Shown here one piece after another: positions 2,007 through 29,062 of a stretch of DNA of 33,348 nt. The notes beneath the pieces are model-generated. The model was not told the origin of the DNA. It did not search any database and saw only the letters and a program-made list of their open reading frames with translations. Made by a program: the position numbers and the translations under genes. The stretch is from positions 1-33,348 of the forward strand of contig JAGHCW010000007.1 of assembly GCA_021160245.1 (NCBI GenBank). Direction: 5' to 3'. Source of the DNA: a bacterium. GTDB taxonomy: Bacteria; B130-G9. The first letter of the stretch is position 1. Each line of letters starts with the position of its first letter.

Positions 2007-2043
2007 GCGAATTGACGCAAGCGGCTCTGGCTTTTTTGGGAGT

Positions 2044-2065: not shown

Positions 2066-2215
2066 CATTGGTGGTAGCTTGATGCCACTCTCTCATAAAT
2101 TGCCTTCTTAACCTTCTTCTTAGAACTCGACATTGACAGTCAGAATATACGGTCGCATTCTTGGCCCTCATTGCAGTATGAGAATCTCTGCATATTGACT
2201 TTGGGGTGTGTGATT

Positions 2216-4483: not shown

Positions 4484-4486
4484 TCG

Positions 4487-8582: not shown

Positions 8583-8630
8583 CGGCGAGGACAGCCGCAG
8601 CTTGCCTTTCGCCGACAATCGGCGCTTTGT
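8582..8630 (+). terminator. Two hairpins after the redox operon, possible terminator
   Basis: GCGGC (8582-8586) can pair with GCCGC (8594-8598). Next, CGCCGA (8610-8615) pairs perfectly with TCGGCG (8619-8624) around CAA and is followed by CTTTGT. The second hairpin is strong but its T-run is short, so termination may be partial. Confidence 0.4.
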
Positions 8631-8710
8631 GGTGGTCGAATTCCTTGACGCGAAGAGTACTCTTGGCTAATAATTATGCCAGATAGAACCACTTGGCTAG
8701 AAGGAAAACT

Positions 8711-9032
8711 ATGGATCAGATCACTCTGCAGAAAGATGCGGGCCTGGCCGATTTCCAGGCGGCGATCCGCGTGCGGCTGGGCAACCGTCTGAAGAAGATG
8801 ATTCTCTTTGGCTCTCGGGCGAGGGGTGATAACGATCCGGATTCGGACTACGACATTCCGGTCGTTCTCGATGAGGTTACTACGGAAGGTCAACCACATC
8901 GTTGAGAACGTTGCCGGTGATTGCGTCTTTGAATATAGCAGGCTCTTCCCGGCGGTTGCCAACTCGGAGGAGCGATTCAAGAATGATTTGTATGAGTCTT
9001 TATTGATCAATGTAAAAAAGGAGCAGAAATAA
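8711..9032 (+). pseudogene. MNT-type nucleotidyltransferase gene broken by a frameshift
   Basis: The ATG at 8711 follows a GAAGGA ribosome binding site. The first frame (to 8905) encodes the nucleotidyltransferase motif ILFGSRARGDNDPDSDYD and VVLDEVT. The family sequence then continues in the next frame, from about 8886, as KVNHIVENVAGDC, FEYSRLFPAV and LLINVKKEQ, ending at 9032. One base too many between about 8875 and 8890 explains the break. Minimal nucleotidyltransferases of this kind are antitoxins in HEPN-MNT toxin-antitoxin pairs, where they AMPylate the HEPN toxin. No HEPN gene follows; the next gene starts 2 bases later and is a dehydrogenase. It is either a real pseudogene or a sequencing error. 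Confidence 0.75.
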
Positions 9033-9034
9033 CC

Positions 9035-10174
9035 ATGCTGAACTTGGGAGTCATCGGCACATCACGCAAGGAAAACGAACGTCGGATACCTATCCACCTT
9101 GACCACGTACCTCGCATCCCCAATGAGTTCCGCCGCCAGCTGCTGTTTGAGAAAGGCTACGGCGAGCGCATGGGCGTGTCAGACGCCCACCTTGCAGCAC
9201 AGAGCGGAGGACTGGCGGAGCGACGAGTTCTGCTTGAAGAGAGCGACGTGGTGCTTCTCAACAAGCCGGTTAACGAGGATTTTGCCCAGATTCGCGAAGG
9301 CGGGATTTTTTGGGGATGGCCCCATTGCGTGCAGAAGAGGGCTATCACACAGATCGCCATCGACAGAAAACTGACGGTAATCGCCTTTGAGGCCATGTTC
9401 AACTGGACTGAGCTGGGGGCGCGCGGAACGCACACTTTCTACAGGAATAACGAGATGGCAGGCTACTGTAGTGTTTTACATGCCCTTGCCTTAATGGGCA
9501 TTGACGGTTATTACGACCGACATCGTCGCGTCGTGGTGCTGAGTTTTGGGAGTGTGAGCCGTGGAGCTCTCCATGCGCTGAAAGGCAGGGGATTCAACGA
9601 TATCATTGTTTACACACAACGGCCCATCCACCTGTTACACGATCAGATACTTGGCTGCCACTACGCGCAGCTGCGCCGTAGCGGCCCTGGAGAGTCGCAG
9701 CCAATTGCCCAAGAGAGGGATGGATCCCAACGGCCGCTTATCGAGGCCTTGGCCGAGGCGGATATTATCGTCAACGGCATCCTACAGGACACCGACAACC
9801 CGCTGATGTACTTTGAACCGGACGAGTTGGCCCGGCTGAAGGCCGGCTCTCTGATAATCGATGTGAGTTGCGATGAGGGGATCGGCTTCCCATTCGCTAA
9901 GCCAACCACGTTTGAGAAGCCAATGTTCGAGGTTGGACACTGCCACTACTATGCGGTCGATCACACGCCGACTTACTTATGGGAGAGCGCATCCAGGGAG
10001 ATCTCGGCCGCTCTATTGCCATATCTGCATGTGGTGTTAGGTGGACCAGAGCATTGGGCGAAAAGCGAAACCATCCGGCGCGCCATTGAGGTCCGGGAAG
10101 GCGTGGTCCAGAATCCGAAAATACTCAGCTTCCAGCACCGTTCTGCTGAATACCCTCATCCGGTTATGGACTGA
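9035..10174 (+). CDS. N5-(carboxyethyl)ornithine synthase-like NAD(P)-dependent dehydrogenase
   Basis: A 379-residue protein of the alanine dehydrogenase/transhydrogenase fold. The N-terminus (LGVIGTSRKENERRIPIH, then LLFEKGYGERMGVSD) closely fits N5-(1-carboxyethyl)-ornithine synthase, which reductively joins pyruvate to the side-chain amine of ornithine with NADPH. A nucleotide-binding turn is seen at VVVLSFGSVSRGALHAL, and IIDVSCDEGIGFPFA and FEVGHCHYYAVDHTPTYLW form the C-terminal catalytic part. It seems longer than the enzyme I recall from lactococci (about 313 residues). The ATG at 9035 follows a good AAGGAG, which lies inside the end of the broken nucleotidyltransferase. It could instead act on another amino acid; a lysine-type or alanine dehydrogenase-like role is not excluded. 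Its closeness to a SoxAB-like opine oxidase operon is notable. Confidence 0.7.
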   Translation: MLNLGVIGTSRKENERRIPIHLDHVPRIPNEFRRQLLFEKGYGERMGVSDAHLAAQSGGLAERRVLLEESDVVLLNKPVNEDFAQIREGGIFWGWPHCVQKRAITQIAIDRKLTVIAFEAMFNWTELGARGTHTFYRNNEMAGYCSVLHALALMGIDGYYDRHRRVVVLSFGSVSRGALHALKGRGFNDIIVYTQRPIHLLHDQILGCHYAQLRRSGPGESQPIAQERDGSQRPLIEALAEADIIVNGILQDTDNPLMYFEPDELARLKAGSLIIDVSCDEGIGFPFAKPTTFEKPMFEVGHCHYYAVDHTPTYLWESASREISAALLPYLHVVLGGPEHWAKSETIRRAIEVREGVVQNPKILSFQHRSAEYPHPVMD

Positions 10175-10177
10175 CTT

Positions 10178-10689
10178 GTGGATTTCGTCATCCCCTTTTG
10201 GATACTACTCGGACTAGTTCTCTACATTTACTTCTGTTACCCCGTCGGCATCTAGATTATCTCGAAAGCGAGACCGTTCGCGGTCCGCAGGCAAATCATC
10301 ACGGCCGCAATTTCAGTAGTCATTTACTTACATCGGAGAGACATCGATCGAGTAGCAGCTCGAGAACGCGTTAGCGCTTGACTATCTCAAGGAAAACTTG
10401 AGGTTATCGTCGTGTTCGACGGCTCAACAGACCGGACAGAAAAGATCGCACGCATTTTGAGGCCCCTGGCGTTAAGGTGATCGCCCTTCCATCGAATATG
10501 GGCAAGAGCGAGTCGCAGAATGCGGGCGCCGCTGAAGCCCAAGCCGATCTGGCGGCGCCAGAGGAAATCGCCCGGGCAATCACGAACTATCTCGTCAACG
10601 AGGAACCAGTTGACTCTCCGGAGAGTGACAGTGATACCTCGGAGCTATCGTCCAGAGAGGAAGACAACCGGAAAGGCCAGCCTCGATAA
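10178..10689 (+). pseudogene. Decayed family 2 glycosyltransferase
   Basis: From a GTG at 10178 the frame encodes an N-terminal membrane helix and the YP element typical of membrane glycosyltransferases (FWILLGLVLYIYFCYPVG), then a stop (TAG at 10253). The same frame then carries AAISVVIY, another stop, and LEVIVVFDGSTDRTEKIAR, the nucleotide-sugar binding core. At about 10460-10470 the match moves to a different frame (PGVKVIALPSNMGKSESQNAG), and SSREEDNRKG may be the remains of the next conserved block. At least two stops and one frameshift within 350 bases rule out a working product. The catalytic second half is not found. It is probably a dead gene left by deletion. Confidence 0.7.
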
Positions 10690-10832
10690 CAGGTCATTTG
10701 TGTCCCTCCACAAGCTGCCTACTCGCCGCTCTTAATTTTCCCGAGCGTTATTTTATCAACGGCGAAGCTGAGCTCTCTGGTGTCTGGGGAATGGCCGACG
10801 GGGCACGATGTGTATAGTAGGCCGGTGTGCCA

Positions 10833-11054
10833 ATGAGATGTGTTGTTTGTGGTTCTGAGATGGTGGAGACACGGACGGACCTTCCTTTCAAGGTGGGGCC
10901 GTCGTCAATCGTGATCATCAAGGGGCTCCCGGTTCATTCCTGCACGAGATGCCAGGAGTTTGCGCTCGACGACCCGGTCATGGAGAAGGTTGATAAGATA
11001 CTTGGTTCGGTTGACGAGTCGATGGAGCTTGAGGTCGTCCACTTCGCCGCGTGA
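10833..11054 (+). CDS. YgiT-type zinc-finger protein (MqsA-like antitoxin N-domain)
   Basis: A 73-residue protein starting with MRCVVCGSEM and continuing to HSCTRCQEFAL, so two CxxC pairs that bind one zinc ion. The spacing and the middle segment (VGPSSIVIIKGLPV) fit the YgiT-type zinc finger, the N-terminal domain of the MqsA antitoxin. The C-terminal part is only a short helix (PVMEKVDKILG) with no helix-turn-helix, as in the small stand-alone members. Such proteins often sit next to a DUF4258 or MqsR-type toxin; no toxin gene is recognisable here. A GTG two codons upstream (10827) is an alternative start. The gene lies between the decayed glycosyltransferase and a convergent operon. Confidence 0.7.
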   Translation: MRCVVCGSEMVETRTDLPFKVGPSSIVIIKGLPVHSCTRCQEFALDDPVMEKVDKILGSVDESMELEVVHFAA

Positions 11055-11186
11055 CTTGGGACTCCTAATAGGCATTCTCGATGGAGACGGGTCAAACCTC
11101 AACCTCGATCTGCTGAACGCCGAGATGCGAGGCAGGCCTCTGAACGGTTCTTCGTCCGCCCCTTTGGGGCATTAGAACATCCAAGC

Positions 11187-11233
11187 CAAAAAAAACGCCC
11201 CGCACCCAAGGCGGGCACGAGGCGTTTTGATTT
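11187..11233 (-). terminator. Intrinsic terminator of the Hnd/GltB-like operon
   Basis: On the minus strand, AAAACGCC and GGCGTTTT form the outer stem and GCCCGC with GCGGGG extends it inside; a run of eight T residues follows (complement of the A-run at 11188-11195). It lies about 20 bases after the stop of the GltB-like gene. The A-run on one side and T-run on the other could also let it end transcripts coming from the plus strand. Confidence 0.85.
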
Positions 11234-11253
11234 GCTTTCCTATGGGCGCTAGT

Positions 11254-12834
11254 CTATGCGTCCAGGATACTGTCAACTTCCTCTTTGTCGAGGTCCATAA
11301 CGCATGGGATGCCAGTAATGGCCTCACATTCCTTGGTTAGGCTTGCGAGGTCGTTGCGGTTCACGTGCTCTAGGGTGAACTTCCTTGCTCCGCACATTAG
11401 CTGACGGATTCCCTGGGCAAGTCTCTCATAGTAGGTATAGACGCCGATGGCTCCGGTCGGGATATCGTCGAACTTATCGCCCCATTTTTCCCGCAGATCG
11501 GGAGCGGTAACGAATATCTCGTCTTTCGATAGTCCAAAGCGCTCGATGAAGACCGGCATATCGCCCTGATCGAGTCGCTTGCCGATGGTTTTTCCGACCA
11601 TTGCCGCCGCAAGTGGCGAACGGGCCATACCGACTAGCTTCGTATAAGGCGCGCCGAGCGCGAGTGCCTTGAATATCTGATCCTCAAATGTGAAGCCGCC
11701 TGCAAACGCAATATCCGGGACATGTTCGCCCTTGCTAGCTAGTCTCTCGCAGTACTGGTGTGTGAGAGAGTGAATCTCAAGCGATGGGATGCCCCACTCG
11801 TTCATCATCCGCCATGGGCTCATGCCCGTGCCGCCGCCTGCGCCATCAACTGTGAGGAGGTCGATCTCCGCCATTGACGCGAACTTGACCGCCCTGGCCA
11901 GATCGGCCGGCCGATAGGCGCCCGTCTTCAGGAAGACGCGCTTCGCGCCTGCGTTTCTGAGCTCCTCAACTCTACTCAGGAAGCCGTCCTTCTCAACCAT
12001 GCCGAGGCGCGAATGGCGCTCGAACTCACGGAACGACCCGCGCTTGAATGCCTCGATTACTACTGGGTTGGTCGGATTCGGCATAACAACGTAGCCCCGC
12101 TTGTAAAGCAGCTGAGCCTTCTCGAGGCTCTTCAGTTTAACCTCACCGCCGATGTCCTTTGCGCCTTGTCCCCACTTGAGCTCAACAGTCTGGACGCCAC
12201 ATTTTCTGAGGCCATATTCTTGTATTCCAAGCCTAGTGTCTTCTACGTTAGCCTGAAGGACGATGTCCCCGTAGCCTCCGCGTTGCCAGTCGAAGAATGT
12301 CTTGATTCTCCACTCCAGGTCCGGAGCCTTGACAACTTTGCCGTTCTCAATAACCGACTCAACGTCCATACCGACGACATTCTCGCCAATTGTGATGATC
12401 GTGCCGGCGAGCGCGGAGCCGATGGCGATACCTTCCCAGTTGATCTTTGCGATGTTAGTGGAACCGAGGCCCGGTATCACAAATGGAAGCTTGAGCTTGA
12501 GGGGATTCTTCTTCCCGACCTGGGTCTCTAGGTTGACGTTGGGGAAGAGAGCCTTGTCGCTATCGGGCTCGATGCCTACGGCGCCGACGGCAGTACCCAT
12601 GATGTTGAGGTAGGAATAATCAACGGGATAGTCCTTCTCGGCCGCAGTAGTGATGATACCGAATGGCTGAGGGTAGATCACCTCGTGCCCTCGATAGGCG
12701 GATTTGCCGATCTCACACATCCCTACGCAACCGTCAATACACGTTGCACACATTCCGCTGATAGGACTGACAGAACCCTCCGTTCTGTTCTTGGTGAGGG
12801 TAGCGGCAGTGGCATTCAGTTTGGTTAAGGTCAT
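11254..12834 (-). CDS. FMN-binding glutamate synthase-family protein (GltB-like central domain only)
   Basis: A 526-residue protein with the FMN/TIM-barrel domain of glutamate synthase large subunits: IGSALAGTIITIGENVVG, a VELKWGQGAKDIGGE stretch, LLTVDGAGGGTGMSP and the phosphate-binding AFAGGFTFEDQIFKALALGA. The glutamine amidotransferase domain and the C-terminal GXGXG domain of normal GltB are absent. The loop that holds the [3Fe-4S] cluster in GltB also lacks its cysteines. Instead, an N-terminal cysteine cluster (CATCIDGCVGMC, about residues 28-39) is present. It is therefore not a standard glutamate synthase; its substrate is unknown. It has a strong AGGAGGAG site before the ATG and is the last gene of an operon with three NADH-dehydrogenase-like subunits, which probably feed it electrons or take them from it. 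Confidence 0.78.
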   Translation of the reverse strand: MTLTKLNATAATLTKNRTEGSVSPISGMCATCIDGCVGMCEIGKSAYRGHEVIYPQPFGIITTAAEKDYPVDYSYLNIMGTAVGAVGIEPDSDKALFPNVNLETQVGKKNPLKLKLPFVIPGLGSTNIAKINWEGIAIGSALAGTIITIGENVVGMDVESVIENGKVVKAPDLEWRIKTFFDWQRGGYGDIVLQANVEDTRLGIQEYGLRKCGVQTVELKWGQGAKDIGGEVKLKSLEKAQLLYKRGYVVMPNPTNPVVIEAFKRGSFREFERHSRLGMVEKDGFLSRVEELRNAGAKRVFLKTGAYRPADLARAVKFASMAEIDLLTVDGAGGGTGMSPWRMMNEWGIPSLEIHSLTHQYCERLASKGEHVPDIAFAGGFTFEDQIFKALALGAPYTKLVGMARSPLAAAMVGKTIGKRLDQGDMPVFIERFGLSKDEIFVTAPDLREKWGDKFDDIPTGAIGVYTYYERLAQGIRQLMCGARKFTLEHVNRNDLASLTKECEAITGIPCVMDLDKEEVDSILDA

Positions 12835-12900
12835 TTGCTCCTCCTAAGGATTTCCAGCAAAGAGAAACTTGCTCTCAGATTAGTCAATTCTTCCAAATGT

Positions 12901-13605
12901 CTAGGCTTGTACTTTCTTCTTCTTCTCTGCTCTAAAAGGCCCTGTCAACTCACAAGCCGCGCAGGGATCAAGGAAACACATCTTCTCGTCATATGTATCC
13001 AGACACGGCGCCTCAAGATTCAAACAGCCGCTGCAGACGGTGGTCTCAGCATTCGGTCCTTGGCATCGCAGTTCGCAGCACGGACAGATATACATGCACG
13101 CTCCACAGAGTCGGCAGACATCTGATGTCTTGTCGAACGGCGTCGTGATGACCATATCTTTGCCTCTCTCGGCAAATCCTATTGCTCCCGCCATCATCTG
13201 CTCGTTGCACATTCTCACGCAGAGCCCGCAGTGGATACATTCCCCATGCTCAGGCACGAATCTGCACTTGGTTACACCGAACTTCGATGCGAGGTCTTGA
13301 ATAGTCTTGGAGCTGGGTACCGTTGCGATCATCAGCTCAATGATCAGCTTCCTTTGATTGATTACCCTTTGGGTGTTGGAATGGACGATAAGGCCGTCTT
13401 CCGCCGGATACGTACATGAGGTTACGATCTTCGACCGCGGCGGCTTACCAATCTCCACAATGCAGAGCCTGCAAGCGCCCAACGGAGTCAACCCGTCGTT
13501 GTGACAGAGCGTCGGAACCTCGATGCCGAGGAACCTAATCGCCTCAAGTAGGGTGGTGCCCTTTTCCACCTCTACATCAAGTCCGTCAATTGTCAATTTG
13601 GGCAT
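12901..13605 (-). CDS. HndD/HoxU/NuoG-N-terminal-like ferredoxin subunit
   Basis: A 234-residue electron-transfer protein. Residues 1-80 are a plant-type [2Fe-2S] ferredoxin with cysteines in PTLCHND, GACRLC and SCTYP. Further on are ferredoxin motifs (CIHCGLCVRMC and CRLCGACMYICPCCELRC), then another cysteine-rich tail (CSGCL, APC, MCFLDPCAAC). This is the arrangement of NuoG/HoxU and of the N-terminal half of [FeFe]-hydrogenase HndD, but without the hydrogenase H-cluster domain. It starts with a good AAGGAGGAG site 15 bases after the stop of the NuoF-like gene. In known complexes this subunit wires NADH-reduced flavin to the catalytic subunit. The extra C-terminal cysteines are unusual and may be the contact to the GltB-like partner. 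Confidence 0.78.
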   Translation of the reverse strand: MPKLTIDGLDVEVEKGTTLLEAIRFLGIEVPTLCHNDGLTPLGACRLCIVEIGKPPRSKIVTSCTYPAEDGLIVHSNTQRVINQRKLIIELMIATVPSSKTIQDLASKFGVTKCRFVPEHGECIHCGLCVRMCNEQMMAGAIGFAERGKDMVITTPFDKTSDVCRLCGACMYICPCCELRCQGPNAETTVCSGCLNLEAPCLDTYDEKMCFLDPCAACELTGPFRAEKKKKVQA

Positions 13606-13620
13606 TATGTTTTCTCCTCC

Positions 13621-15414
13621 TTAAACAACGTTGATTGCGTCGAACTTGCAGGCCTCAACGCAGGCGCCGCATTTGATGCACGTCTTGGTGTCGATTACGT
13701 GAGTCTGCTTCTTCTCACCGGAAATCGAGTCGGTGGGGCATACTCGCTTGCACGCGCCGCACCCGATGCACTTATCTTCAAGGATGCTATATGTAATTAG
13801 CTCCTTGCAGAAGCCTGCCGGACACCGCTTCTCCTTTATGTGAGCATCGTATTCATCCCTGAAGTAACGGATGGTGGACAACGTCGGGTTCGCGGCTGTT
13901 TGTCCAAGCCCGCACATCGAGGTATCCTTGACCATTATCGCCAATTCCTCTAGGAGCTCAACGTCCCCTTCTTTGCCTTTGCCGTTACAGATGTTCGTCA
14001 GTATTTCGAGCATTCGCTCCAGGCCCTTCCTGCATGTGAAGCACTTTCCACAAGACTCACCTGCAAGGAAGTTGGTGAAATAACGAGCTACGTCAACCAT
14101 GCACGTATCCTCGTCCATCACAATGAGGCCACCCGAGCCCATCATGGAGCCAACGCTGGCGAGACTATCGTAGTCAATCGGCAGGTCTAGCATCGATTCG
14201 GGCAGACATCCACCAGAAGGTCCTCCCGTCTGAACGGCCTTGAATTTCTTGCCCCCGAGAATGCCTTCCCCAATCCCAAAGACAATTTCCCGGACGGTGA
14301 TCCCCATCGGGACCTCAACGAGGCCAGTGTTGTTGATCTTGCCCACGAGCGAGAATATCTTGGTCCCTTTACTACCCTCGGTCCCAACCGAGGCGAACCA
14401 CGCGCCGCCCTTACGAATGATCTGCGGCACATTCACCCATGTCTCGACGTTATTGATGTTTGTCGGCTTGCCCCAAAGTCCTTTCTGGGCAGGGAAAGGT
14501 GGACGCTGCCTGGGCCGTCCGACTTGCCCCTCAATGGACCGAATAAGCGCTGATTCCTCGCCACAAACAAAAGCCCCGGCGCCTATAGCCACTGACAGCT
14601 TGAAGTTGAATCCGCTTCCCAGAATGTCATCACCCAGAAGCCCCATATCTTCAGCCTGCTTGATCGCCTTCTTCATGCGCTCAACCGCCAGAGGATATTC
14701 CATTCTGACGTAGACGAAGCCCTTTTCGGCGCCAATGGCCTTGGCGCCAATCGCCATGCCCTCGATCACAGCATGGGGGTCCGCCTCAAGCACACTTCTG
14801 TCCATGAACGCTCCCGGATCGCCCTCATCAGCGTTGCAGATGAGATACTTTGGCGAATTGGGCTGCTCTTTGCAGACCTGCCACTTACGGGCAGTCGGGA
14901 AGCCGGCGCCACCGCGCCCCCGAAGCCCAGATATCCTAATCTGCTCGATTATCTGCTCAGGCGACATCTCCGTAAGCGACTTGGCAAGACCTAGATAGCC
15001 GTCAAACGCTATATAATCCTCGATCTTCTCTGGATTGATCCTGCCTCTATTGCGCAGAGCCACAAGCTTCTGGTACTTGAAGAACTCAATGTCCTTCATG
15101 GCCGGTATCGGCGTTTTCTTCCGATGTGGTGTGTACATCAGAGTTGGAACAGGCCGACCCTTTAGGCAATGCTCCTCCACGAGAAATGGAACGTCCTGAA
15201 CCTTAAGACGCTGATAGAATATCCCCTCGGGCTCAAAAAGCACCAAAGGCCCATTCTCACAGAATCCATTACAGCCTGTTGGGACAACGTCGATCTCTTC
15301 CTGAAGGCCGTGCTTCTCGATCTCCTTCTGGAACGTCTCCATGATGTCGAAGGCGCCGGCCGAGACGCAGCCTGTCCCCGTGCATACAAGGATATGTGTT
15401 CTTTGAGCTTTCAA
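13621..15414 (-). CDS. NuoF/HndC-like NAD(P)H- and FMN-binding subunit
   Basis: A 597-residue protein with three parts. Residues 1-110 are a thioredoxin-like [2Fe-2S] domain (CTGTGCVSAGA and PTGCNGFCENGP). The middle is the NuoF core, with the glycine-rich NADH/FMN site GLRGRGGAGFPTARKW, NADEGDPGAFMDR and the [4Fe-4S] motif ESCGKCFTCRKG plus the later MCGLGQ. The C-terminus holds two ferredoxin clusters (CIGCGACKRVCP and CIKCGACVEAC). This is the layout of HydB of bifurcating hydrogenases and HndC of the NADP-reducing hydrogenase, both longer than respiratory NuoF. The frame starts with TTG at 15414, placed after AAGGAAAG. It is the second gene of the operon. Inferred role: NAD(P)H oxidation or reduction, possibly with electron bifurcation. 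Confidence 0.85.
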   Translation of the reverse strand: MKAQRTHILVCTGTGCVSAGAFDIMETFQKEIEKHGLQEEIDVVPTGCNGFCENGPLVLFEPEGIFYQRLKVQDVPFLVEEHCLKGRPVPTLMYTPHRKKTPIPAMKDIEFFKYQKLVALRNRGRINPEKIEDYIAFDGYLGLAKSLTEMSPEQIIEQIRISGLRGRGGAGFPTARKWQVCKEQPNSPKYLICNADEGDPGAFMDRSVLEADPHAVIEGMAIGAKAIGAEKGFVYVRMEYPLAVERMKKAIKQAEDMGLLGDDILGSGFNFKLSVAIGAGAFVCGEESALIRSIEGQVGRPRQRPPFPAQKGLWGKPTNINNVETWVNVPQIIRKGGAWFASVGTEGSKGTKIFSLVGKINNTGLVEVPMGITVREIVFGIGEGILGGKKFKAVQTGGPSGGCLPESMLDLPIDYDSLASVGSMMGSGGLIVMDEDTCMVDVARYFTNFLAGESCGKCFTCRKGLERMLEILTNICNGKGKEGDVELLEELAIMVKDTSMCGLGQTAANPTLSTIRYFRDEYDAHIKEKRCPAGFCKELITYSILEDKCIGCGACKRVCPTDSISGEKKQTHVIDTKTCIKCGACVEACKFDAINVV

Positions 15415-15468
15415 TGTTACTTTCCTTTTCCTATATGTTTAAGTCACATTGCATGCATAATCCGATCA

Positions 15469-15852
15469 TCAGCCCATTGTCTCCGAACCAACACCCAGTG
15501 CGTATTCCGGCACGGGCTCGCCCTTTAGAACGTGGCTCTCGAATATCTCTCTCACTTTTTCCCGGGTTAGGTCAATGTATTTAACGGGAGGGCTAAATCG
15601 GTACTCGACTGCCATCATCGGCTCCTTGCTGCAAAGACCAGCGCAGCCGGAAGACGTGGCAATCACGTCATCTAAATGATGCTGCATAATGAGTTGCAAG
15701 ACCTCGTCCATAATCTCCCGAGCTCCTGCGGTAATCCCACAGGTACCCATGAACACGGTCACTTTGGCCCTTGCCGTCCCCTCCCTCAAGAGGACCGTCC
15801 GTTGGGCCTCGCCCTTTATCCTCTTGAGGTCCTCAACTGTCAGCTTAGTCAT
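15469..15852 (-). CDS. HndB/NuoE-like thioredoxin-fold [2Fe-2S] ferredoxin
   Basis: A 127-residue small ferredoxin. The cysteines fall in VFMGTCGITAGA and SGCAGLCSKEPM, the spacing of thioredoxin-like [2Fe-2S] proteins such as HndB. It lacks the N-terminal helical part of full NuoE. It is the first gene of the minus-strand redox operon, with an AAGGAG site and a promoter candidate about 55 bases upstream. The NuoF-like gene follows after about 55 bases. Hnd-type complexes have this subunit as an electron carrier next to the flavin subunit. Confidence 0.8.
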   Translation of the reverse strand: MTKLTVEDLKRIKGEAQRTVLLREGTARAKVTVFMGTCGITAGAREIMDEVLQLIMQHHLDDVIATSSGCAGLCSKEPMMAVEYRFSPPVKYIDLTREKVREIFESHVLKGEPVPEYALGVGSETMG

Positions 15853-20816: not shown

Positions 20817-21377
20817 CTAGTTCCTAATGTTACTGATCTTACCGTCCCTGAAATCGAGGTTGATGCTCTTCCGGTCGAGCCAATAGCCCCAGCTGTCGCT
20901 CTTGATACTCGGAGTTCTGTGCGTCGGCGGGTATCCGTAAGCCATTAGCACAGCATCCTTACTCATGCCAACGGCAATCGTCCCTTTCTTTATGTTCTCC
21001 TGCTCCATCTTGGTGAACTTGTGGAAGGGGCCGTCCTTCGCCATGGGGTCAGTTTCCGAGAAGTATCGATCGAAAAGAGCCCGAATGCTCACGTTAGTGT
21101 ACTTCGGCACATGATAGATCGTAAAAAGAGTCTGCGTTTTCTCCTCATTGAATCTGATCTTGCCATCACCGAGGCTGATTATCATCACCTTTGACCCCAC
21201 GGGCAGTATCGCGCCTCGATGGTAGTTAGTTGAGAGGATTTTGATGGGTCTCTCGTACCAGATATTGACCTTTGTGAAGAAGGTCTTGCTCTCCGGGCTC
21301 TCCGCGCACAAAGCCGAGAACGCGAACAGGCTGACCAATACGACCACAAGAGCACACAGCATATTCTTGTTCATCAT
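20817..21377 (-). CDS. Exported BamE/SmpA-like protein
   Basis: A 186-residue protein with a signal peptide (MMNKNMLCALVVVLVSLFAF, then ALCAES as likely cleavage site). No lipobox Cys is placed correctly for a lipoprotein, although SALCAES has a Cys near the cleavage region. The C-terminal 60 residues have the pattern of the BamE/SmpA-OmlA fold: KGTIAVGMSKDAVLMAYGYP, then SWGYWLDRKSINLDFRDGKIS. That domain occurs in envelope assembly factors and in many small exported proteins. GAGGTAG serves as the ribosome binding site. It lies downstream of the ketosynthase operon in the same direction with a 157-base gap, so it could belong to that operon or be separate. Confidence 0.65.
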   Translation of the reverse strand: MMNKNMLCALVVVLVSLFAFSALCAESPESKTFFTKVNIWYERPIKILSTNYHRGAILPVGSKVMIISLGDGKIRFNEEKTQTLFTIYHVPKYTNVSIRALFDRYFSETDPMAKDGPFHKFTKMEQENIKKGTIAVGMSKDAVLMAYGYPPTHRTPSIKSDSWGYWLDRKSINLDFRDGKISNIRN

Positions 21378-21534: not shown

Positions 21535-22629
21535 TTAACGAGTCAGGACGACCGACGCCTTTTTGCCGAGGCAATTGAACCGGACGCACTCGATTCTCTC
21601 GATGCTCGCCGGCTCGGTTCTCTCGCAAAGTCTTAGACCATGCGGATTGTCCTTTATTGGGCACGCGTAGCGGAGCTGGCCCTTGAGCATCAGGGCGGCT
21701 GCCGCGCAATGAAAGCCCGTGCCGATCATCGTGCTGCCAAAAATAGGAGAGTATCCAGCGGCATAAACATCACGCCAGTCAAGGCCCCGGTAGGGACTCT
21801 CGCTTCCCGCCATGCCGTCGGCGTCAACCATGCGAATATCCGGCCTCTTCGCTATCTCCTTTGTGTCGAACGTGGATGCCGATGCGAATCTGCAATGTGG
21901 CTTGTCTGTCGGCTGCCTCGTAACGAGGAAGAAGACCGCTCCCTCTCCTGGCGCCGCAATCGGCGTCTCTGAGAAGTCAAATTGCCTGATTCGTCCGTCA
22001 TTTGCGATTCTCAGCTTTTGAGCGCTGATGTGCTCCATAACGGTGTGGGTCTCATCAACGCCGCCTACGAGGACGTAATCGCACCGACCCTCAGCAAGCC
22101 ACGCCTCGGCCGCGATGAGCGCCTCGTGAAAGGAAAAAGCGAACTGCGTTAGCGTTGTGCAGGGGCCGCGACTATCCAAGACCTTTGCGATATAGAAGGT
22201 CGCCGTATTGTGGACTGAGTGAGAGAATAGTTTTGGAGATACGTTGTTGTCCCCATAATCTATGACGTTATCTAAGAACCCGAAGGTGGTCGAGTGGGGC
22301 CCGAGAGCTGACGCCATAATGATCCCGAGTGAAGAGGAGCCGGCCTCGAAGATAACGCCGCTATCCTGTACTGCGTCCCACGCCGCTAAAACAGCCATCC
22401 TGCAGAATCTATCGGCCCGGCGGAAGCCCTTCAGAACTGACTTGTCCTTGAGTATATGCTCGGGTACGCGATAGGCCGGGATGCTCCCTTTCAGAGCGGT
22501 AGATTTACTCATCTGAGGAGGCGCAAAGCCTTGACGTAGTGAAGTGTCGAGGGAGGCGAGACCGCGCCCGCCGGTGAAAACCACGCCCATCCCAGCGATA
22601 TTCATGCCCTTCAATTGAGAACTCATCAT
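21535..22629 (-). CDS. Ketosynthase-like protein without catalytic residues (chain-length-factor-like)
   Basis: A 364-residue member of the beta-ketoacyl synthase fold, recognisable from MNIAGMGVVF, LGIIMASALG, DYVLVGGVDETH and the C-terminal FNCLGKKASVVL. All three catalytic residues are lost. The nucleophile region that reads NACTSG in active enzymes is LTQFAFSFHEA here, the first histidine region is replaced by RDVYAAGYSP, and the second by FGSTMIGTGFHCAAA. This is the state of chain-length factors and of the KS-beta partner in type II systems. Its start codons overlap the stop of the active ketosynthase (ATGATGAG, 22629-22622), which strongly supports a stable heterodimer with it. The frame runs further upstream but that part lies inside the neighbouring gene. 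Last gene of the operon. Confidence 0.8.
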   Translation of the reverse strand: MMSSQLKGMNIAGMGVVFTGGRGLASLDTSLRQGFAPPQMSKSTALKGSIPAYRVPEHILKDKSVLKGFRRADRFCRMAVLAAWDAVQDSGVIFEAGSSSLGIIMASALGPHSTTFGFLDNVIDYGDNNVSPKLFSHSVHNTATFYIAKVLDSRGPCTTLTQFAFSFHEALIAAEAWLAEGRCDYVLVGGVDETHTVMEHISAQKLRIANDGRIRQFDFSETPIAAPGEGAVFFLVTRQPTDKPHCRFASASTFDTKEIAKRPDIRMVDADGMAGSESPYRGLDWRDVYAAGYSPIFGSTMIGTGFHCAAAALMLKGQLRYACPIKDNPHGLRLCERTEPASIERIECVRFNCLGKKASVVLTR

Positions 22630-23810
22630 TCGGCCGAGGCGATAACTAGCGCCGAGTTGTTGCCCCCGAACGCAAGTGACGTCGAGACAGCATAACGGCC
22701 AGCTATTGGAGTTCTCTCGGAGACGGGGCTTATGCCTATCTCTTCGTCCTGGCAATTGAATCCAGCGCTTGCGGGTATCCAACCCACGTCAAGGGCAGCA
22801 GTGGTAAAAACGGCTTCCAGGCCGCCTGCCGCGCCGAGTGTATGGCCCGTGAAACCCTTCGTCGAGAGGAATTTTGTGCCCTTCCCAAATACTTTGGTGA
22901 AGACCGCGCCCTCGATTTTATCATTATCTAGCGTCGCCGTGCCGTGAGCGTTGACAAATGACACATCATCGGGTTTGATGTTCGCCTCATTAAGGGCGGT
23001 TCGCAAGGCCGATTCGAGACCAGTGCCGTCTGGCCGAGGCGCGGTGAGATGATATGCGTCGCTCGATGAGCCGTATCCCATAAGATAACGCTTGGGTTTG
23101 GCTCCCCGCGCGGAATAGACAGCCTCGCTTTCAAGAACCAAGACGCCGGCGCCCTCCCCGAGATTCAGGCCCTTCCGGTTGCGATCATACGGGGCGCAGA
23201 GTGACTCGCTTAAGATTCCAAGCGAGGCGAAGCCGGAGAGCGCGATGAGGTTTAGCTCGTCCGAACCGCCGGCCACAGCAACGTCGCAAACGTCATTTCT
23301 CAGCCATGACAGCGCCATGCCGATGGCGTCTGCGCCGGAAGTGCAGGCGTTGACAACGACGGCAGCTGGGCCATGAAGGTCAAACGTATGCGCGACGACC
23401 TCGGCGAGATTGCCCTTTAAGAAACGGTCAACGGAGTCCATTCTGAGCGTTCCGGTCTCTCGATACGCCCTATAAAAGTCCACATCATTTAGCTGACTTG
23501 CGGCCGTTGTTCCGAAACAGACCCCCACTCTGAGACTCGAGACATCGCCCTTGATGCCAGCATCCTCAAGCGCCTCGTTTGTGGCGCATAGCGCGAGCTG
23601 CAATGTGCGGCTGCCTCCTCTGTTCCATTCTTCGGGTATTTTCTGGACCTCGAATGAGGGATGCTTGAGCGATGTGGGGAAAAGTGAGACTGGGGCAGCA
23701 TTCCTCTTGCCCAGCCCAAAAGTCTCCAGGGTCTCTGAGAGATTCCCGCCGGCGGCCGAAATCGCGCCGAGCCCCGTTATAGCCACATTCATCAGATTGA
23801 GGTCAAGCAT
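22626..23810 (-). CDS. Beta-ketoacyl-ACP synthase (FabF/KS-alpha-like)
   Basis: A 394-residue ketosynthase with all catalytic residues: Cys156 in NACTSGADAIG, His289 in NAHGTATLDND and His323 in TKGFTGHTLGAAGG. It also has LAVAGG-type VAVAGGSDE and GLNLGEGAGVLVLE. The enzyme joins an acyl chain and malonyl-ACP. The split with a degenerate partner gene and the small dedicated acyl carrier protein upstream suggest a special chain rather than normal fatty acid synthesis. The first ATG (23810) has no clear ribosome binding site; a second one six codons later (23792) is possible. The space between it and the carrier protein gene is filled by an IS110 remnant, so the start region may have been altered by that insertion. 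Confidence 0.9.
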   Translation of the reverse strand: MLDLNLMNVAITGLGAISAAGGNLSETLETFGLGKRNAAPVSLFPTSLKHPSFEVQKIPEEWNRGGSRTLQLALCATNEALEDAGIKGDVSSLRVGVCFGTTAASQLNDVDFYRAYRETGTLRMDSVDRFLKGNLAEVVAHTFDLHGPAAVVVNACTSGADAIGMALSWLRNDVCDVAVAGGSDELNLIALSGFASLGILSESLCAPYDRNRKGLNLGEGAGVLVLESEAVYSARGAKPKRYLMGYGSSSDAYHLTAPRPDGTGLESALRTALNEANIKPDDVSFVNAHGTATLDNDKIEGAVFTKVFGKGTKFLSTKGFTGHTLGAAGGLEAVFTTAALDVGWIPASAGFNCQDEEIGISPVSERTPIAGRYAVSTSLAFGGNNSALVIASAE

Positions 23811-23814
23811 TTGT

Positions 23815-24286
<472 letters not shown>

Positions 24287-24318
24287 ATCGTTCTCTCCCG
24301 GTTAATCTGTAGCGGCGC

Positions 24319-25242
24319 TCACTCAATCCGCTCATCATCACCCCATATATCAAAGAACAAGAAGCATTGATACGGGTAATCATCTATGTAATCTTGCAGG
24401 ATCGCGGCGTAATTCCGGACCCAACTGGCGATCTGCCCGCGCTTGCCCCTTGCGCTCTTATATTTAGGATACAATATATGCGATACATCAATCAAATATC
24501 CATATTCCGACACCTTTGCGGACAATAATACAGCAACCGGGCACTTCGCCGCGGCGGCAATCACGAAAGCGCTGAACGGGAATCGTGCAGTGTCGCCGAG
24601 AAACGGAACCTCAACTGTATCAAAGCCGTAGCTGCGATCACCCATGATGGACACAATATGACCCTCGGCCAAAACGTTCATAACCTGCAGGGCGCCTCCG
24701 ATGTTATCCTCGGCCGAGATGATCTTTATCCCCTTCTCTTCTCGCCTCACGCGCAGCGATGTATTCACTGCCACATTATGCTCTGGGCGCATCAAGAGAT
24801 AAACGTCTCTCTTCATCTCACCAAGCGAGCTTAGAGCCAGCTGCCAATTGCCAACGTGGGCAGTCAGAAGTATGAGGCCACTCTCCCGATTCTCAAGCAG
24901 CTCGACAAATTCCTCATGCCCTTTCAGTTTGAGATCGAAGAGATCATTCTGATGAAGAATGGCTGAACGATCAATCAACTGCTTTCCCTGGCTTATGAAG
25001 AGCCGGTAAATGTGCAAATGCCGTTTCAACCGGCCAGATTCTGGAAACCTACGGGCAACATAAGGCACGGCGGCCGAGACTGCCGAGGGGTCAAAAAGAA
25101 GATAGTAAGCACACACGATATATAGAAAGCTATACGCTACGCGCAATCCTAATACTCGAATAAGCAACCGAAAAAACCAGAAGCCAAACCTATTCCCTCG
25201 CATTCGGGCGGGATGGCCCTCAGACCGATCAGCTGTCCGCAC
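24319..25242 (-). CDS. LpxL/HtrB-like acyltransferase
   Basis: A 307-residue inner-membrane acyltransferase of the lipid A lauroyl/myristoyl transferase family. After a basic start and an N-terminal membrane helix (FWFFRLLIRVLGLRVAYSF), the family pattern follows: GLILLTAHVGNWQLAL, VYLLMRPEHN, and IVSIMGDRSYGFDTVEVPFLG, TARFPFSAFVIAAA. The catalytic HX4D/E motif is here His129 and Gln134 (HVGNWQ), so the usual acid is an amide. GTG at 25242 overlaps the glycosyltransferase gene by 14 bases; an ATG at 25203 is the other candidate. In APE- and flexirubin-type clusters such an enzyme moves the finished chain from the carrier protein to a membrane anchor. A normal lipid A role is less likely because of the neighbours. 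Confidence 0.87.
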   Translation of the reverse strand: MRTADRSEGHPARMRGNRFGFWFFRLLIRVLGLRVAYSFLYIVCAYYLLFDPSAVSAAVPYVARRFPESGRLKRHLHIYRLFISQGKQLIDRSAILHQNDLFDLKLKGHEEFVELLENRESGLILLTAHVGNWQLALSSLGEMKRDVYLLMRPEHNVAVNTSLRVRREEKGIKIISAEDNIGGALQVMNVLAEGHIVSIMGDRSYGFDTVEVPFLGDTARFPFSAFVIAAAAKCPVAVLLSAKVSEYGYLIDVSHILYPKYKSARGKRGQIASWVRNYAAILQDYIDDYPYQCFLFFDIWGDDERIE

Positions 25243-26425
25243 TAGTGTGAGCCCTCCTTATTCGCGGTATTTGCGCGATAAAGAACACGATGAGCCCCAT
25301 CACACACGCCGCGATCGGGGCGAAGATGAGCGAGCCAAGTAACCACTCGAAAAGGCGCTCCATCAATTGTCCAACAATGGCGTCGTACGAGACTTCCGTT
25401 AGCCAACGGCCATGACGCATATAATGCCCCAACTCAATGCAAATGAAGGGCGACAATGGGGGCATGAAGAAGTGCTGAATGTTGACGGCCATTACCTTGT
25501 TCAAATGCAGTCGCGTTGCGGCATAGAGTATCACGATTGTGTGGACCGAGATGAGGGGCAGAACAGCCAGAAACGTTCCAACAGCAGCGGCTGCGGCAAG
25601 CCCCCCCGGAGTCGCATTCTCCTTCACCAGCGCCTTCAGCAACTTTATGGGGTGTAGTATCAGGCCTTTGTCAATACTGCCCTCAGCCGTCGCCGGGACG
25701 AGGCGCCGATGAGGCCATGGAAGAAGACGCCTCGCCACGAGGCGCGTGTGCATCCAGGAGATGCGCAGGTTGTCCCAAAACACCCTGAAACTAGTAATGC
25801 GCAATCCGGGAGGGGCATAGAAAACATCAACCGGAATCTCCCTCAGACGCAGTCCGGCCCAGGCTGCCTTGGTAAGTATCTCTGTGTTGAACTCGAATCG
25901 GCTGCCCGAGAATCTGATACTCTTGATGTATTCGACCGGATACGCTCGAAAACCGCTTTGGCAATCATCAATTGAGACGCCTGTCTCAAGGAGCAACCAG
26001 AGGTTCCCAAACTTACGGCCAAATCGGCTCGCGAATGGAATGTTCTCCGAGTCAAATCGCCTACATCCGATAATCACGGACGTTTCATCTTCCTTCAGGA
26101 TTTCAATGAACTTTTCCAAGTCGCGAGGATAGTGCTGGCCATCCGCGTCGATCGTTATCACAAATCGCCCACCACGGTCAGCGACGTATTCGAGCGCAGT
26201 GAGTACAGCCTGACCCTGGCCCTGATTACTCTCATGCTGCAGAACTGCGATGTCCAAGCCAGCAAAGAGCGCCGGGATGTCGGCGTCCGTGCTTCCATCG
26301 TCAACAACGACGACGTTATCTAGTCTCTTTCGGCAGGCGACTGCAACATCCCGCACGGTGTCCTTATTGTTATAGACGGGGATGACGCAGAATATGCTCT
26401 CTTCGGTGAAAGGACTACTCGCCAT
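25229..26425 (-). CDS. Family 2 glycosyltransferase fused to a DUF2062 membrane domain
   Basis: A 398-residue protein. The first ~230 residues are a GT-A fold family 2 enzyme like dolichyl-phosphate mannosyltransferase: FCVIPVYNNKDTVRDV, VVVVDDGSTDADI, ESNQGQGQAVLTAL, ITIDADGQHYPRDL (metal-binding DAD) and CQSGFRAYP. The C-terminal ~130 residues form the DUF2062 domain with several membrane helices (GGLAAAAAVGTFLAVLPLI and LLGSLIFAPIAACVMGLIVF). The fusion suggests glycosyl transfer to a lipid at the inner membrane. Start 26425 overlaps the stop of the radical SAM gene by 11 bases; an ATG at 26461 is possible. GT2-DUF2062 proteins occur in polyene and other lipid clusters beside LpxL-like acyltransferases, as here. 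Confidence 0.88.
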   Translation of the reverse strand: MASSPFTEESIFCVIPVYNNKDTVRDVAVACRKRLDNVVVVDDGSTDADIPALFAGLDIAVLQHESNQGQGQAVLTALEYVADRGGRFVITIDADGQHYPRDLEKFIEILKEDETSVIIGCRRFDSENIPFASRFGRKFGNLWLLLETGVSIDDCQSGFRAYPVEYIKSIRFSGSRFEFNTEILTKAAWAGLRLREIPVDVFYAPPGLRITSFRVFWDNLRISWMHTRLVARRLLPWPHRRLVPATAEGSIDKGLILHPIKLLKALVKENATPGGLAAAAAVGTFLAVLPLISVHTIVILYAATRLHLNKVMAVNIQHFFMPPLSPFICIELGHYMRHGRWLTEVSYDAIVGQLMERLFEWLLGSLIFAPIAACVMGLIVFFIAQIPRIRRAHTSADS

Positions 26426-27788
26426 CACGTCTGCCTCGTCCTCTGCGTCTTTTCTCTCCACTAAGCAGCATGTCCCAGAGAGTTCCCGTAAAGCCCATTT
26501 CGTGAAGAGAATGAAGACGATCGTCGAGGGCGTCAGCGGGGAAGATGCCGTGTTTCATGCCGGAGAAAGCATTGGTTAGGGTCGTCCGAAGCCAATCACT
26601 GTCGAGGTCTGGCGCAAGATAGTAGGTCGGAGTTAGAAGGTCCGTTTCTGGGGAGATGATACCATCCCGGCTGGCAATTTTCGCGAGCGGCGTGTTCGGA
26701 AGAATGCGAATTCCCATAAACGCAAACAGAACGGCCGGTTGAAGGCTCTGGAGATCTTCTATACCTCGCAGAACTGTGTCTTTGGTCTCACCTGGACCGC
26801 CGAAGAGGAAGAAATGCGCTGTGGCGATGTCGTGCCTATTGAAAAGGTCGTTGCATTCTGCGATGTCTTTGAATGAAAAGCCCTTACCAAGGCCTCGCAG
26901 CGTCGTGTCGGTCGTGCCATCTGAACCGATTTCGGCCGCCTTCAATCCGGTCTGTTTCATCAGCAAAACCGCCTCGTCATTCAAACCGGTCGGCTTGAAG
27001 AAGGCCGTCCAGGGCACGGAGAGCTCCCTTGACCTCATCTCGCGCATGAGCTCCAAGTAGTGGTTGCCGTCGTCATTGAAGACCGAATCTGTGAAGAAGA
27101 TATATTCCGCTCCGTGCCTTTCCTTGAGCATCTCAATGTCATCCACGACGGAGACCGTGTTGCGACTCCGAATGGCGGCGCCCTCAAGAAGCGGATAAGA
27201 GCAATAGACGCATTTGTGGGGACATCCGCGCTTGGTTTGAACGGGCGCCATCCTTCCACTCTTGAGATAGTAGGACATTATCTTATCTTCGTAGCGCGCC
27301 GACGGCATCTCATCGCCGAGAAGCGATGGAGGAGCCGTAATACAGGAGTTCGGGGGAAGCTCGTGCGTCTTGAGCCGATCCACGAATTCAACCATCGCTG
27401 TCTCGCCCTCGCCGACGATACCGTAGTCGGCGCCGACCGTTTTCATAATAGCCTGGGGCATCAAAGAGAAACCCGAGCCTCCGAGGACTATTGGCGCATT
27501 CGTCTTCTGCTTGACGCTCTGCATAATGACCTTGACCGCATCAATATAGCGCTCCTCATGCAAAGCATTCACATTGTCGATGTTGCGAACCGATACGCCG
27601 ATAACTTCTGGGGAGAATTGCTCAATCTCCCCTCTCAGCGCCTCATGCGACCGTCCGCTCGCAAGGAAGTCGAAGAGGCGGACCTCGTGTCCAGCATCGG
27701 CAAGCGCGGCGGCAACTATACCCAGCCCAAGGGGATAAACTGGATAAGGTGTCTTCGCGATATTCGTCGAGATAAGTAAAACCCTCAT
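26415..27788 (-). CDS. B12-binding radical SAM enzyme (lipid-cluster type)
   Basis: A 457-residue enzyme. Residues 1-140 have the Rossmann-like fold of B12-binding domains (MRVLLISTNIAKTPYPVYPL, EVIGVSVRNID, IVLGGSGFSLMP, YGIVGEGETAMVEF). The radical SAM cluster motif is Cys189-x3-Cys193-x2-Cys196 in RGCPHKCVYC, followed by EYIFFTDSVFND and FFLFGGPGETKDT. Such enzymes methylate unreactive carbons or rearrange carbon chains. The N-terminal PYPVYPLGL resembles, as I recall, a group labelled lipid-biosynthesis B12-binding/radical SAM proteins. The frame extends far upstream, but the ATG at 27788 overlaps the stop of the previous gene (ATGA) and starts the domain correctly. Confidence 0.87.
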   Translation of the reverse strand: MRVLLISTNIAKTPYPVYPLGLGIVAAALADAGHEVRLFDFLASGRSHEALRGEIEQFSPEVIGVSVRNIDNVNALHEERYIDAVKVIMQSVKQKTNAPIVLGGSGFSLMPQAIMKTVGADYGIVGEGETAMVEFVDRLKTHELPPNSCITAPPSLLGDEMPSARYEDKIMSYYLKSGRMAPVQTKRGCPHKCVYCSYPLLEGAAIRSRNTVSVVDDIEMLKERHGAEYIFFTDSVFNDDGNHYLELMREMRSRELSVPWTAFFKPTGLNDEAVLLMKQTGLKAAEIGSDGTTDTTLRGLGKGFSFKDIAECNDLFNRHDIATAHFFLFGGPGETKDTVLRGIEDLQSLQPAVLFAFMGIRILPNTPLAKIASRDGIISPETDLLTPTYYLAPDLDSDWLRTTLTNAFSGMKHGIFPADALDDRLHSLHEMGFTGTLWDMLLSGEKRRRGRGRRDGE

Positions 27789-29062
27789 GGGGCCACTTCC
27801 CCGACCGCGGCCTTCGTCCACTTTCGCGCGCCGGATAGCCTCACTCGCTTGTAGGTTCCGTCCTTCTTCTTTTTCTCGATGAGCTTGAGGAACATTCTGG
27901 CCATCCTCATTTCCTTGCTCTCGTCGTGGTAGAAAGTCTCCCAAGCATATTCGTACATGCTCTGAAGCGCGCTTGGGGACATCTTTGCCGGCTCAAAGAC
28001 GACTTTGCCCGTCGTATATCGCCTCCAGTCGCTGTGAAGAATCCGGCCCTGCCTCATCAATTGATCCCTGATCGGCGTGTGGGGGAATGGGGTGAGAATA
28101 GTAAATTCAGCAAGATCGAGGTCTATCTCGAGAAGAAAATCGACCAATCGCTTGATATAATCCTCGTCGTGATCGTCCAGACCTAAAAGTACAGTGCCCT
28201 CGACGCCAATGCCTCGCTCTTTGAGCCGCTTGATTTTGCGCCGAATGTGGTCTGACGTATCCACGATGGCTTGATAGACGTACCAACAGCCCGCCTCTGC
28301 AGCAAGGTCGAGTATCTCATCGCTATCTTTTATAGGATGCGATATCCACTTCTTCTTAAGCGGAGCGATCGTTCGGAAAAGCTCCTTCTCCCACTCGTCG
28401 TCTTGGGCAAGCGAGTTGTCAACGAAGAAAACCTGGTCGTTATCGATGCTCTTAAGCTCCTCGACAACTGCATCAACTGGACGTGGCCTGAATTTCCGAC
28501 CCCCAAGATAGGGTGTGCAACACGGGAAGCAATTGAAGCGACAGCCCCTCGACGCATGAACCAGGTCAACCATCTGAAAGCCGCGGAATCTATAAAGCTC
28601 CTTCTTGAGAATGCCTCGACGGGCGGTCCCGATGAGGCTTGTGTCCGGGAAATCGGTCAAGAAATCATAGACTTTCTTCAGCTGATTGTTCCGAACATCC
28701 TCGATCAACCGGTCAAAGCGCCCCTCCGCCTCGCCCAGGAAGACCGCGTCGGCGTGCTGCATAGTCTCCTGGGGGTGGAGCATTGTGGCGATGCCGCCGA
28801 ACACAACCTTCACGCCTCGCGCACGATACCAGTCCGCAATTTCCCATGCCCGAGGCATCTGGCACGTTAGCATGACCGATAGGAGTATAAGGTCGGCATC
28901 ATCCTCGCCCAACCGAAGCTCCTCGACATTCTCATCGCAGAATGACAAGTCGATATCCTCGCTGAGAGCGGCGGCGAAGCACACAGGCCCATGAGGTGGC
29001 AGATTGAACTGGGTCTGCTCCTTCAACTTGGGCCATTCGGGATATATCAGTCTGATCTTCAT
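27785..29062 (-). CDS. B12-binding radical SAM enzyme (BchE-like)
   Basis: A 425-residue enzyme, first gene of the lipid-type operon. The B12-binding-like domain covers about residues 1-140 (MKIRLIYPEWP, DLILLSVMLTCQM, VKVVFGGIATMLHP, ADAVFLGEAEG). The radical SAM motif is Cys174-x3-Cys178-x2-Cys181 in RGCRFNCFPC, followed by VFFVDNSLAQD and VEGTVLLGLDDHDED. An internal extra Cys follows directly (PCC). The substrate is unknown; relatives add methyl groups, close rings or form C-C bonds. The start at 29062 is chosen over 29107 because it follows GAAGAGAGTGAG and begins the domain. It is coupled to the second radical SAM gene by an ATGA overlap, which suggests two successive steps on one substrate. 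Confidence 0.87.
   Translation of the reverse strand: MKIRLIYPEWPKLKEQTQFNLPPHGPVCFAAALSEDIDLSFCDENVEELRLGEDDADLILLSVMLTCQMPRAWEIADWYRARGVKVVFGGIATMLHPQETMQHADAVFLGEAEGRFDRLIEDVRNNQLKKVYDFLTDFPDTSLIGTARRGILKKELYRFRGFQMVDLVHASRGCRFNCFPCCTPYLGGRKFRPRPVDAVVEELKSIDNDQVFFVDNSLAQDDEWEKELFRTIAPLKKKWISHPIKDSDEILDLAAEAGCWYVYQAIVDTSDHIRRKIKRLKERGIGVEGTVLLGLDDHDEDYIKRLVDFLLEIDLDLAEFTILTPFPHTPIRDQLMRQGRILHSDWRRYTTGKVVFEPAKMSPSALQSMYEYAWETFYHDESKEMRMARMFLKLIEKKKKDGTYKRVRLSGARKWTKAAVGEVAP

Follow-up and report, generated by a model that had tools for sequence, protein, structure and literature searches.

Organization of the operon

Positions 1 to 33,348 of contig JAGHCW010000007.1 of the bacterial assembly GCA_021160245.1 (lineage B130-G9; uncultured), referred to here as the window, carry on the minus strand seven open reading frames (positions 21535-29062; Table 1), all intact and free of internal stops, that join two radical S-adenosylmethionine (SAM) enzymes to genes for chain building and lipid attachment. 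Judged from homology and gene order, this operon is the downstream half of a biosynthetic gene cluster (BGC) of the aryl polyene (APE)/flexirubin type. Pfam and NCBIfam assign all seven products, in agreement with the families given in a preliminary description of this DNA: two proteins that each combine a B12-binding with a radical SAM domain (rSAM1 and rSAM2), a family 2 glycosyltransferase with DUF2062 (GT2), a Lip_A_acyltrans acyltransferase (AT), a PP-binding acyl carrier protein (ACP), a ketosynthase (KS) and a degenerate ketosynthase (KSdeg). Start and stop codons overlap at two junctions, rSAM1/rSAM2 and KS/KSdeg, and GT2 and AT each overlap the upstream neighbor by about 10-14 nt.

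Relationships of the ketosynthases, carrier protein and transferases

The preliminary description had proposed a lipid- or polyene-type operon akin to APE and flexirubin clusters but equipped with an uncommon radical SAM pair, and profile matches bear this out. When family profiles were run against the Ape proteins of Escherichia coli CFT073 together with 88 decoys, GT2 (148.7 bits) and AT (136.8 bits) both matched ApeJ, a homology that fits the glycosylation in the membrane predicted earlier. The ACP profile scored 71.8 bits against ApeE and 36.3 bits against AcpP, and the KS profile likewise favored ApeO (322 bits) over FabF (295 bits).

The KS retains the Cys, two His and Lys, whereas in KSdeg the Cys is replaced by Ala and the HGT motif is gone; in relatives of KSdeg the Cys site is occupied by Glu, Tyr, Leu, Phe, Ser or Arg. 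The AlphaFold2 model of KSdeg (pLDDT 87) has a ketosynthase fold, with the ishigamide ketosynthase/chain-length factor structure 6kxd_A as the top solved match and many FabF structures about equal to it; the best structure match of the KS is PDB 9s5h. In a phylogenetic tree the KS groups with the ketosynthases that other clusters of the same type encode and is separate from FabF, FabB, ApeR, ApeO and KS2, a further ketosynthase family of these clusters. The degenerate ketosynthases cluster together with full support; their branch is long, and its placement relative to the rest is perhaps unreliable. An origin of the KS in housekeeping fatty acid synthesis was considered and rejected, as the housekeeping FabF of the genome is encoded elsewhere (L128, 7573-8820) and belongs to another clade. 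Equating the Geobacter FabF NP_951518 of Rattray, which has Phe at the Cys site, with the Geobacter-type KSdeg of the present clusters is also unsupported, the latter having Arg.

Conservation across genomes

When rSAM2 was used to scan 84,980 species, each represented by a single genome, 114 relatives came up; the 80 that were retained represent 79 distinct loci, a sample biased to close relatives of rSAM2. The full order rSAM1-rSAM2-GT2-AT-ACP-KS-KSdeg is present in 37 of the 79 loci and in at least seven phyla, so that a chance grouping of these genes can be set aside; among the remaining loci, many are truncated where the contig ends, and some are rearranged or have no AT. The synteny anticipated for the operon is thus real. 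A FabF placement of the KS combined with an unconserved gene order had been named in advance as what would overturn the proposal, and since the KS stands apart from FabF, this combination was not found. The hosts, as named in record titles, which may err for bins, include Nitrospirota, Desulfobacterota, Omnitrophota, Hydrogenedentota, Planctomycetota, Kiritimatiellota, Verrucomicrobiota and others; one genome with the full cluster is that of Pontiellaceae bacterium B12227 (L073). Three genomes of the same family as the host of the window (83-95% complete) contained no ortholog of the cluster genes searched, and a plasmid search with KS and rSAM2 returned generic relatives only. No 16S gene was found in the assembly that contains the window.

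Many of the longer loci carry, directly before rSAM1, an ordered block encoding an AMP-ligase, a radical SAM-SPASM protein, LolA, an MMPL protein, DUF3261, an ApeI-like dehydratase, a thioesterase, KS2 and a KS-like protein (F5), headed in some loci by a PlsC-type acyltransferase. Profiles of these families matched their Ape counterparts: thioesterase-ApeK 100 bits, LolA-ApeL 48, dehydratase-ApeI 43, PlsC-ApeD 48 and MMPL-ApeM 234 bits. In two Elusimicrobia loci (L080 and L087) the radical SAM pair lies within a near-canonical APE cluster with matches to ApeR, ApeC and ApeM and, in L080, additionally to ApeK and the AT part of ApeJ. A gene for an aromatic ammonia-lyase is found in L087 and in the versions from Desulfuromonadales, where it replaces, together with a stand-alone dehydratase, the radical SAM-SPASM/dehydratase fusion; in most loci no lyase adjoins the cluster.

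The second half of the cluster in the same genome

The genome that contains the window also holds the upstream block, identified with the family profiles on another contig (C16, bases 1255-12160), with genes for an ACP, a KS and a ketoreductase (KR) of the short-chain dehydrogenase/reductase type in front of it, up to 14565. The C16 set comprises KR, KS, ACP, acyltransferase, FlxY-type ligase, the radical SAM-dehydratase fusion, LolA, MMPL, DUF3261, ApeI-type dehydratase, thioesterase, KS2 and F5. The C16 KR scores 190 bits with ApeQ against 171 with FabG, and the C16 KS 336 bits with ApeR against 230 with FabB. The block stops after F5, at the place taken by rSAM1 in other genomes, and is followed by a DNA methylase gene, while rSAM1 in the window is preceded by 4 kb of unrelated sequence; the cluster is therefore split into two loci in this genome.

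C16 and the contig with the seven genes (C139) have GC contents of 0.545 and 0.543 and a tetranucleotide correlation of 0.95, their composition agrees with that of the rest of the genome, and both halves find their best matches in the same relatives. A binning artefact that joined the two contigs is unlikely. Recent transfer of the operon is not supported by composition either (operon versus rest of the contig, r 0.94). Of the usual tail genes F11-F17-F19, F11 was searched for and had no match in the genome. The only aromatic ammonia-lyase gene found in the genome lies away from both halves, and its product scores best as HutH-like (473 bits, against 259 bits for FlxA).

The absence of ketoreductase, dehydratase, starter ligase and exporter genes remarked on earlier thus holds within the window and fails for the genome, where all four are encoded on C16. 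The idea of a minimal, self-contained seven-gene pathway has to be given up, since C16 supplies these functions here and other genomes encode them right before rSAM1.

Three further features of the window deserve mention. An eighth conserved gene (Table 1), missing from the list of the preliminary description, follows KSdeg in a number of loci, and its product had no Pfam or NCBIfam match. The IS110 remnant inside the operon suggests insertion activity in the past. At positions 2171-15852 the window encodes an FeS/flavin gene set (a protein with FlpD and Pyr_redox domains, a CCG-domain protein, Fer2, DAO, NuoE/F/G-like proteins and a partial glutamate synthase) that resembles a complex for NAD(H)-linked electron transfer or for bifurcation.

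Table 1. Genes and other features of the operon in the window and of the cluster half on contig C16 (locus L126)
Feature	Position	Strand	Characteristics
g1, rSAM1	27785..29062	-	425 aa; B12-binding-like + radical SAM; CxxxCxxC = CRFNCFPC; Pfam B12-binding 37.6 bits, Radical_SAM 36.1 bits
g2, rSAM2	26415..27788	-	457 aa; B12-binding radical SAM; CxxxCxxC = CPHKCVYC; TIGR04072 member
g3, GT2 glycosyltransferase + DUF2062 membrane domain	25229..26425	-	Pfam; homologue of the GT part of ApeJ
g4, LpxL-type acyltransferase (AT)	24319..25242	-	Pfam Lip_A_acyltrans; homologous to the acyltransferase portion of ApeJ; GTG start codon preceded by AAGGAGG
g5, ACP, ApeE type	23996..24286	-	PP-binding, DSL serine; PRK09184 68.6 bits (cut-off 70); start codon uncertain
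IS110 transposase C-terminal remnant	23815..24048 (to 24075 at most)	-	Lies in the gap that separates ACP from KS; 28.1 bits with NCBIfam transpos_IS110, under the cut-off; not a functional part
g6, KS, ApeO-like	22626..23810	-	PRK09185 298.9 bits; catalytic Cys/His/Lys/His intact
g7, degenerate KS (KSdeg)	21535..22629	-	Ala at the position of the active Cys; predicted to partner g6 in the manner of a chain-length factor
g8, small protein of family F22, probably exported	20817..21377	-	Signal-like N-terminal stretch; family clustering
Putative lipoprotein	L126 (C16) 1963-2682		239 aa; between KS2 and F5; no family match
DUF3261	L126 (C16) 4716-5573		Export set, order as apeL-M-N
MMPL exporter	L126 (C16) 5390-7840		Export set, order as apeL-M-N
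LolA	L126 (C16) 7791-8513		Export set, order as apeL-M-N
F16, radical SAM-SPASM + C-terminal ApeP-like hot-dog dehydratase	L126 (C16) 8485-9987		Fusion recurs in >20 loci
PagL-type lipid A 3-O-deacylase gene	L126 (C16) 14483-15103		Directly upstream of KR

The radical SAM pair

rSAM2 belongs to the NCBIfam family TIGR04072 (rSAM_ladder_B12), with 616.6 bits against a curated cut-off of 360; the next NCBIfam matches are BzaD (219.6 bits) and TrpMT (155.7 bits), and the best solved relative is TsrM. BzaD and TsrM are aromatic-carbon methyltransferases, and these nearest characterized families of rSAM2 weakly suggest that the pair might methylate. Cyclization by the pair, on the other hand, would have the "ladderane" of the family name as its sole basis.

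rSAM1 is conserved (57-77% identity across phyla) and belongs to no named family above the cut-off. The solved fold closest to its model (pLDDT 87) is AprD4, followed by MgmA and TsrM; with AprD4 as its nearest fold, rSAM1 is perhaps not a methyltransferase and may do without B12. In the rSAM1 tree the sequence from the window adjoins one unclassified, one pseudomonadotal and several desulfobacterial sequences, and no viral relatives of rSAM1 were found.

Further enzymes of this kind occur around and beyond the clusters. In two Desulfuromonadales loci (L101, 6380-10552; L105, 8673-12851) a third B12 radical SAM gene directly follows rSAM2, and an HpnR-like B12 radical SAM gene lies downstream in other loci (L034, 18990-20423; 233 bits, below the cut-off). 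The 3.4 Mb genome itself has about 40 matches to a B12/radical SAM profile, which is unusually many, and the three members of the same family have similar numbers.

Proposed pathway and alternative interpretations

We consider it probable, with some reserve, that the two halves represent a cluster widely conserved in anaerobic bacteria that makes an (aryl)polyene glycolipid of the outer membrane, APE-like and modified by the radical SAM enzymes. Homology and synteny give this reading good support at the family level; the starter, the chain, the radical SAM reactions and the product are predictions. In such a pathway, the FlxY-type ligase would activate an aryl (cinnamate- or coumarate-like) acid for an ACP. 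The KS with its inactive, chain-length-factor-like partner KSdeg, together with the ApeR-like and F6 ketosynthases, would extend it with malonyl units, each of which the ApeQ/FlxB-like KR and the ApeI- and ApeP-like dehydratases would convert to a conjugated double bond, and the thioesterase would release or edit the chain. GT2 and the LpxL-type AT, corresponding to the two halves of ApeJ, and the PlsC-type acyltransferase could then attach the polyene to a glycolipid, and the MMPL exporter, LolA and the DUF3261/LolB-like protein could transport it to the outer membrane. The aryl head or the polyene would be tailored by rSAM2 and perhaps also by rSAM1, most likely through C-methylation of an sp2 carbon in place of the missing ApeB methyltransferase; rSAM1 may instead carry out another radical step. 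If this is correct, an APE-type envelope lipid with built-in B12-type radical SAM tailoring would occur in Nitrospirota, Omnitrophota, desulfobacteria, Kiritimatiellota and others, and the role of TIGR04072 enzymes would become testable within a defined pathway.

Several observations weigh against this interpretation. The KS lies outside the ApeO clade in the tree, the matches of KSdeg to ApeC (12.8 bits) and of DUF3261 to ApeN (15.5 bits) are weak, and the MMPL profile scores a second, generic MMPL protein of the genome above ApeM. The C16 ligase (FlxY, 455.1 bits; cut-off 520) and KR (FlxB, 277.4 bits; cut-off 340) are homologous to their flexirubin counterparts but fall below the NCBIfam equivalog cut-offs, and neither an ApeH-type ligase (the profile of the ligase family F20 misses ApeH) nor ApeG was seen. 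AprD4, the closest fold of rSAM1, is a diol dehydratase, and the predicted methylation draws on distant homology. Finally, no aromatic ammonia-lyase gene lies beside either half, and the only one found in the genome scores best as HutH-like, so that an aryl starter is no more than a supposition and the chain is perhaps a plain polyene.

The foremost alternative is a glycolipid whose fatty-acyl chain is non-aryl and either unsaturated or branched, built by the same machinery from an aliphatic starter, with methyl branches added by the radical SAM enzymes. It agrees with the lack of an adjoining lyase in most loci and with the resemblance of a second AMP-ligase of other genomes (F19) to fatty-acyl ligases; we nevertheless regard it as unlikely, given that FlxY, a coumarate ligase, is the nearest match of the F20 ligase and that aromatic lyases are encoded in the Desulfuromonadales and Elusimicrobia versions.

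Still less likely is a ladderane-like system, in which FAS-type machinery makes a polyene that B12 radical SAM enzymes cyclize to fused rings, as proposed for anammox bacteria. The strong TIGR04072 membership of rSAM2 (617 bits) points in this direction, as do candidate type II fatty acid synthase (FASII) clusters with radical SAM, degenerate FabF, glycosyltransferase, phenylacetyl-CoA-ligase and polysaccharide-deacetylase-like genes (PMC2649909), several families of which (F20, F21) recur in the present cluster type, and the "ladderane" BGCs reported from Desulfobacterota, Omnitrophota and others (PMC9902471). The FASII clusters with radical SAM genes that Rattray (2009) described come from Kuenenia and Desulfotalea, with mention of similar clusters in Geobacter and Pelobacter, but ladderanes were not detected in Desulfotalea (PMC2649909), and anammox candidates expressed heterologously yielded none (PMC4790861). 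Phytoene-desaturase-like genes are absent among the annotated genes of both halves, and the other cluster genes match the attachment and export machinery of APE clusters. A hybrid in which APE machinery and ladderane chemistry form one system, with the radical SAM pair forming rings in many non-anammox anaerobic phyla, appears more doubtful again. Least probable of all is the flexirubin pathway proper, with an aryl polyene esterified to a dialkylresorcinol. The FlxY (455 bits) and FlxB (277 bits) matches and the polysaccharide deacetylase, acyltransferase, LolA, glycosyltransferase and exporter genes of flexirubin clusters speak for it, but the scores stay under the curated cut-offs, DarA and DarB were not seen in the cluster and flx clusters have been described without a radical SAM pair (PMC3992019).

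Comparison with known clusters

In the passages available from the literature searched, no described pathway matches gene for gene, as had been surmised; no open-literature paper was found that ties APE clusters to B12 radical SAM enzymes, subscription papers not having been searched. The closest known relative of the APE-like glycolipid cluster proposed here is the APE cluster of E. coli CFT073 (apeA-R; PMC8253772), which shares the KS/degenerate KS pair, ACP, KR, ApeI- and ApeP-type dehydratases, the GT2 and AT of ApeJ, the ApeK thioesterase, the ApeD acyltransferase and, in the same relative order, LolA-MMPL-DUF3261. In contrast to that cluster, the present one has in addition two B12-type radical SAM enzymes, the radical SAM-SPASM/dehydratase fusion, the ketosynthase F6 and the KS-like F5; its GT2 and AT are separate genes and its ligase is of the FlxY rather than the ApeH type. 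Searches with phmmer (E<=1e-3) detected no homologue of the ApeB methyltransferase or of ApeG, either among the 80 related loci or within those parts of the own genome that were searched.

With the flexirubin cluster of Chitinophaga pinensis (flxA-Y; PMC3992019), whose FlxY is a 4-coumarate ligase, the cluster shares the FlxY-type ligase, the FlxB-type KR, several ketosynthases, LolA, a glycosyltransferase, an acyltransferase and an exporter, and some relatives also share the polysaccharide deacetylase. It differs in the added radical SAM pair and in the lack of FlxA beside the own-genome cluster; among the cluster genes, no DarA or DarB was seen.

The ladderane candidates of the anammox bacterium Kuenenia (PMC2649909, PMC4790861) have, by description, FASII genes with a radical SAM/B12 enzyme, a degenerate FabF, a phenylacetyl-CoA-type ligase and a glycosyltransferase in common with the present cluster, as well as the family name of TIGR04072, whereas APE-type export and attachment genes are present here and phytoene-desaturase-like genes are not. 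"Ladderane" BGCs have also been called outside anammox bacteria (PMC9902471, PMC8692599), in phyla that overlap with those found here (Desulfobacterota, Omnitrophota, Verrucomicrobiota); the passages in question give no gene content, and those of PMC9902471 report such BGCs in Desulfobacterota, Omnitrophota and others without a product. As a guess, clusters of the present type may be what these surveys called, and an APE-like glycolipid pathway, if correct, would offer a concrete alternative reading of "ladderane" calls outside anammox bacteria.

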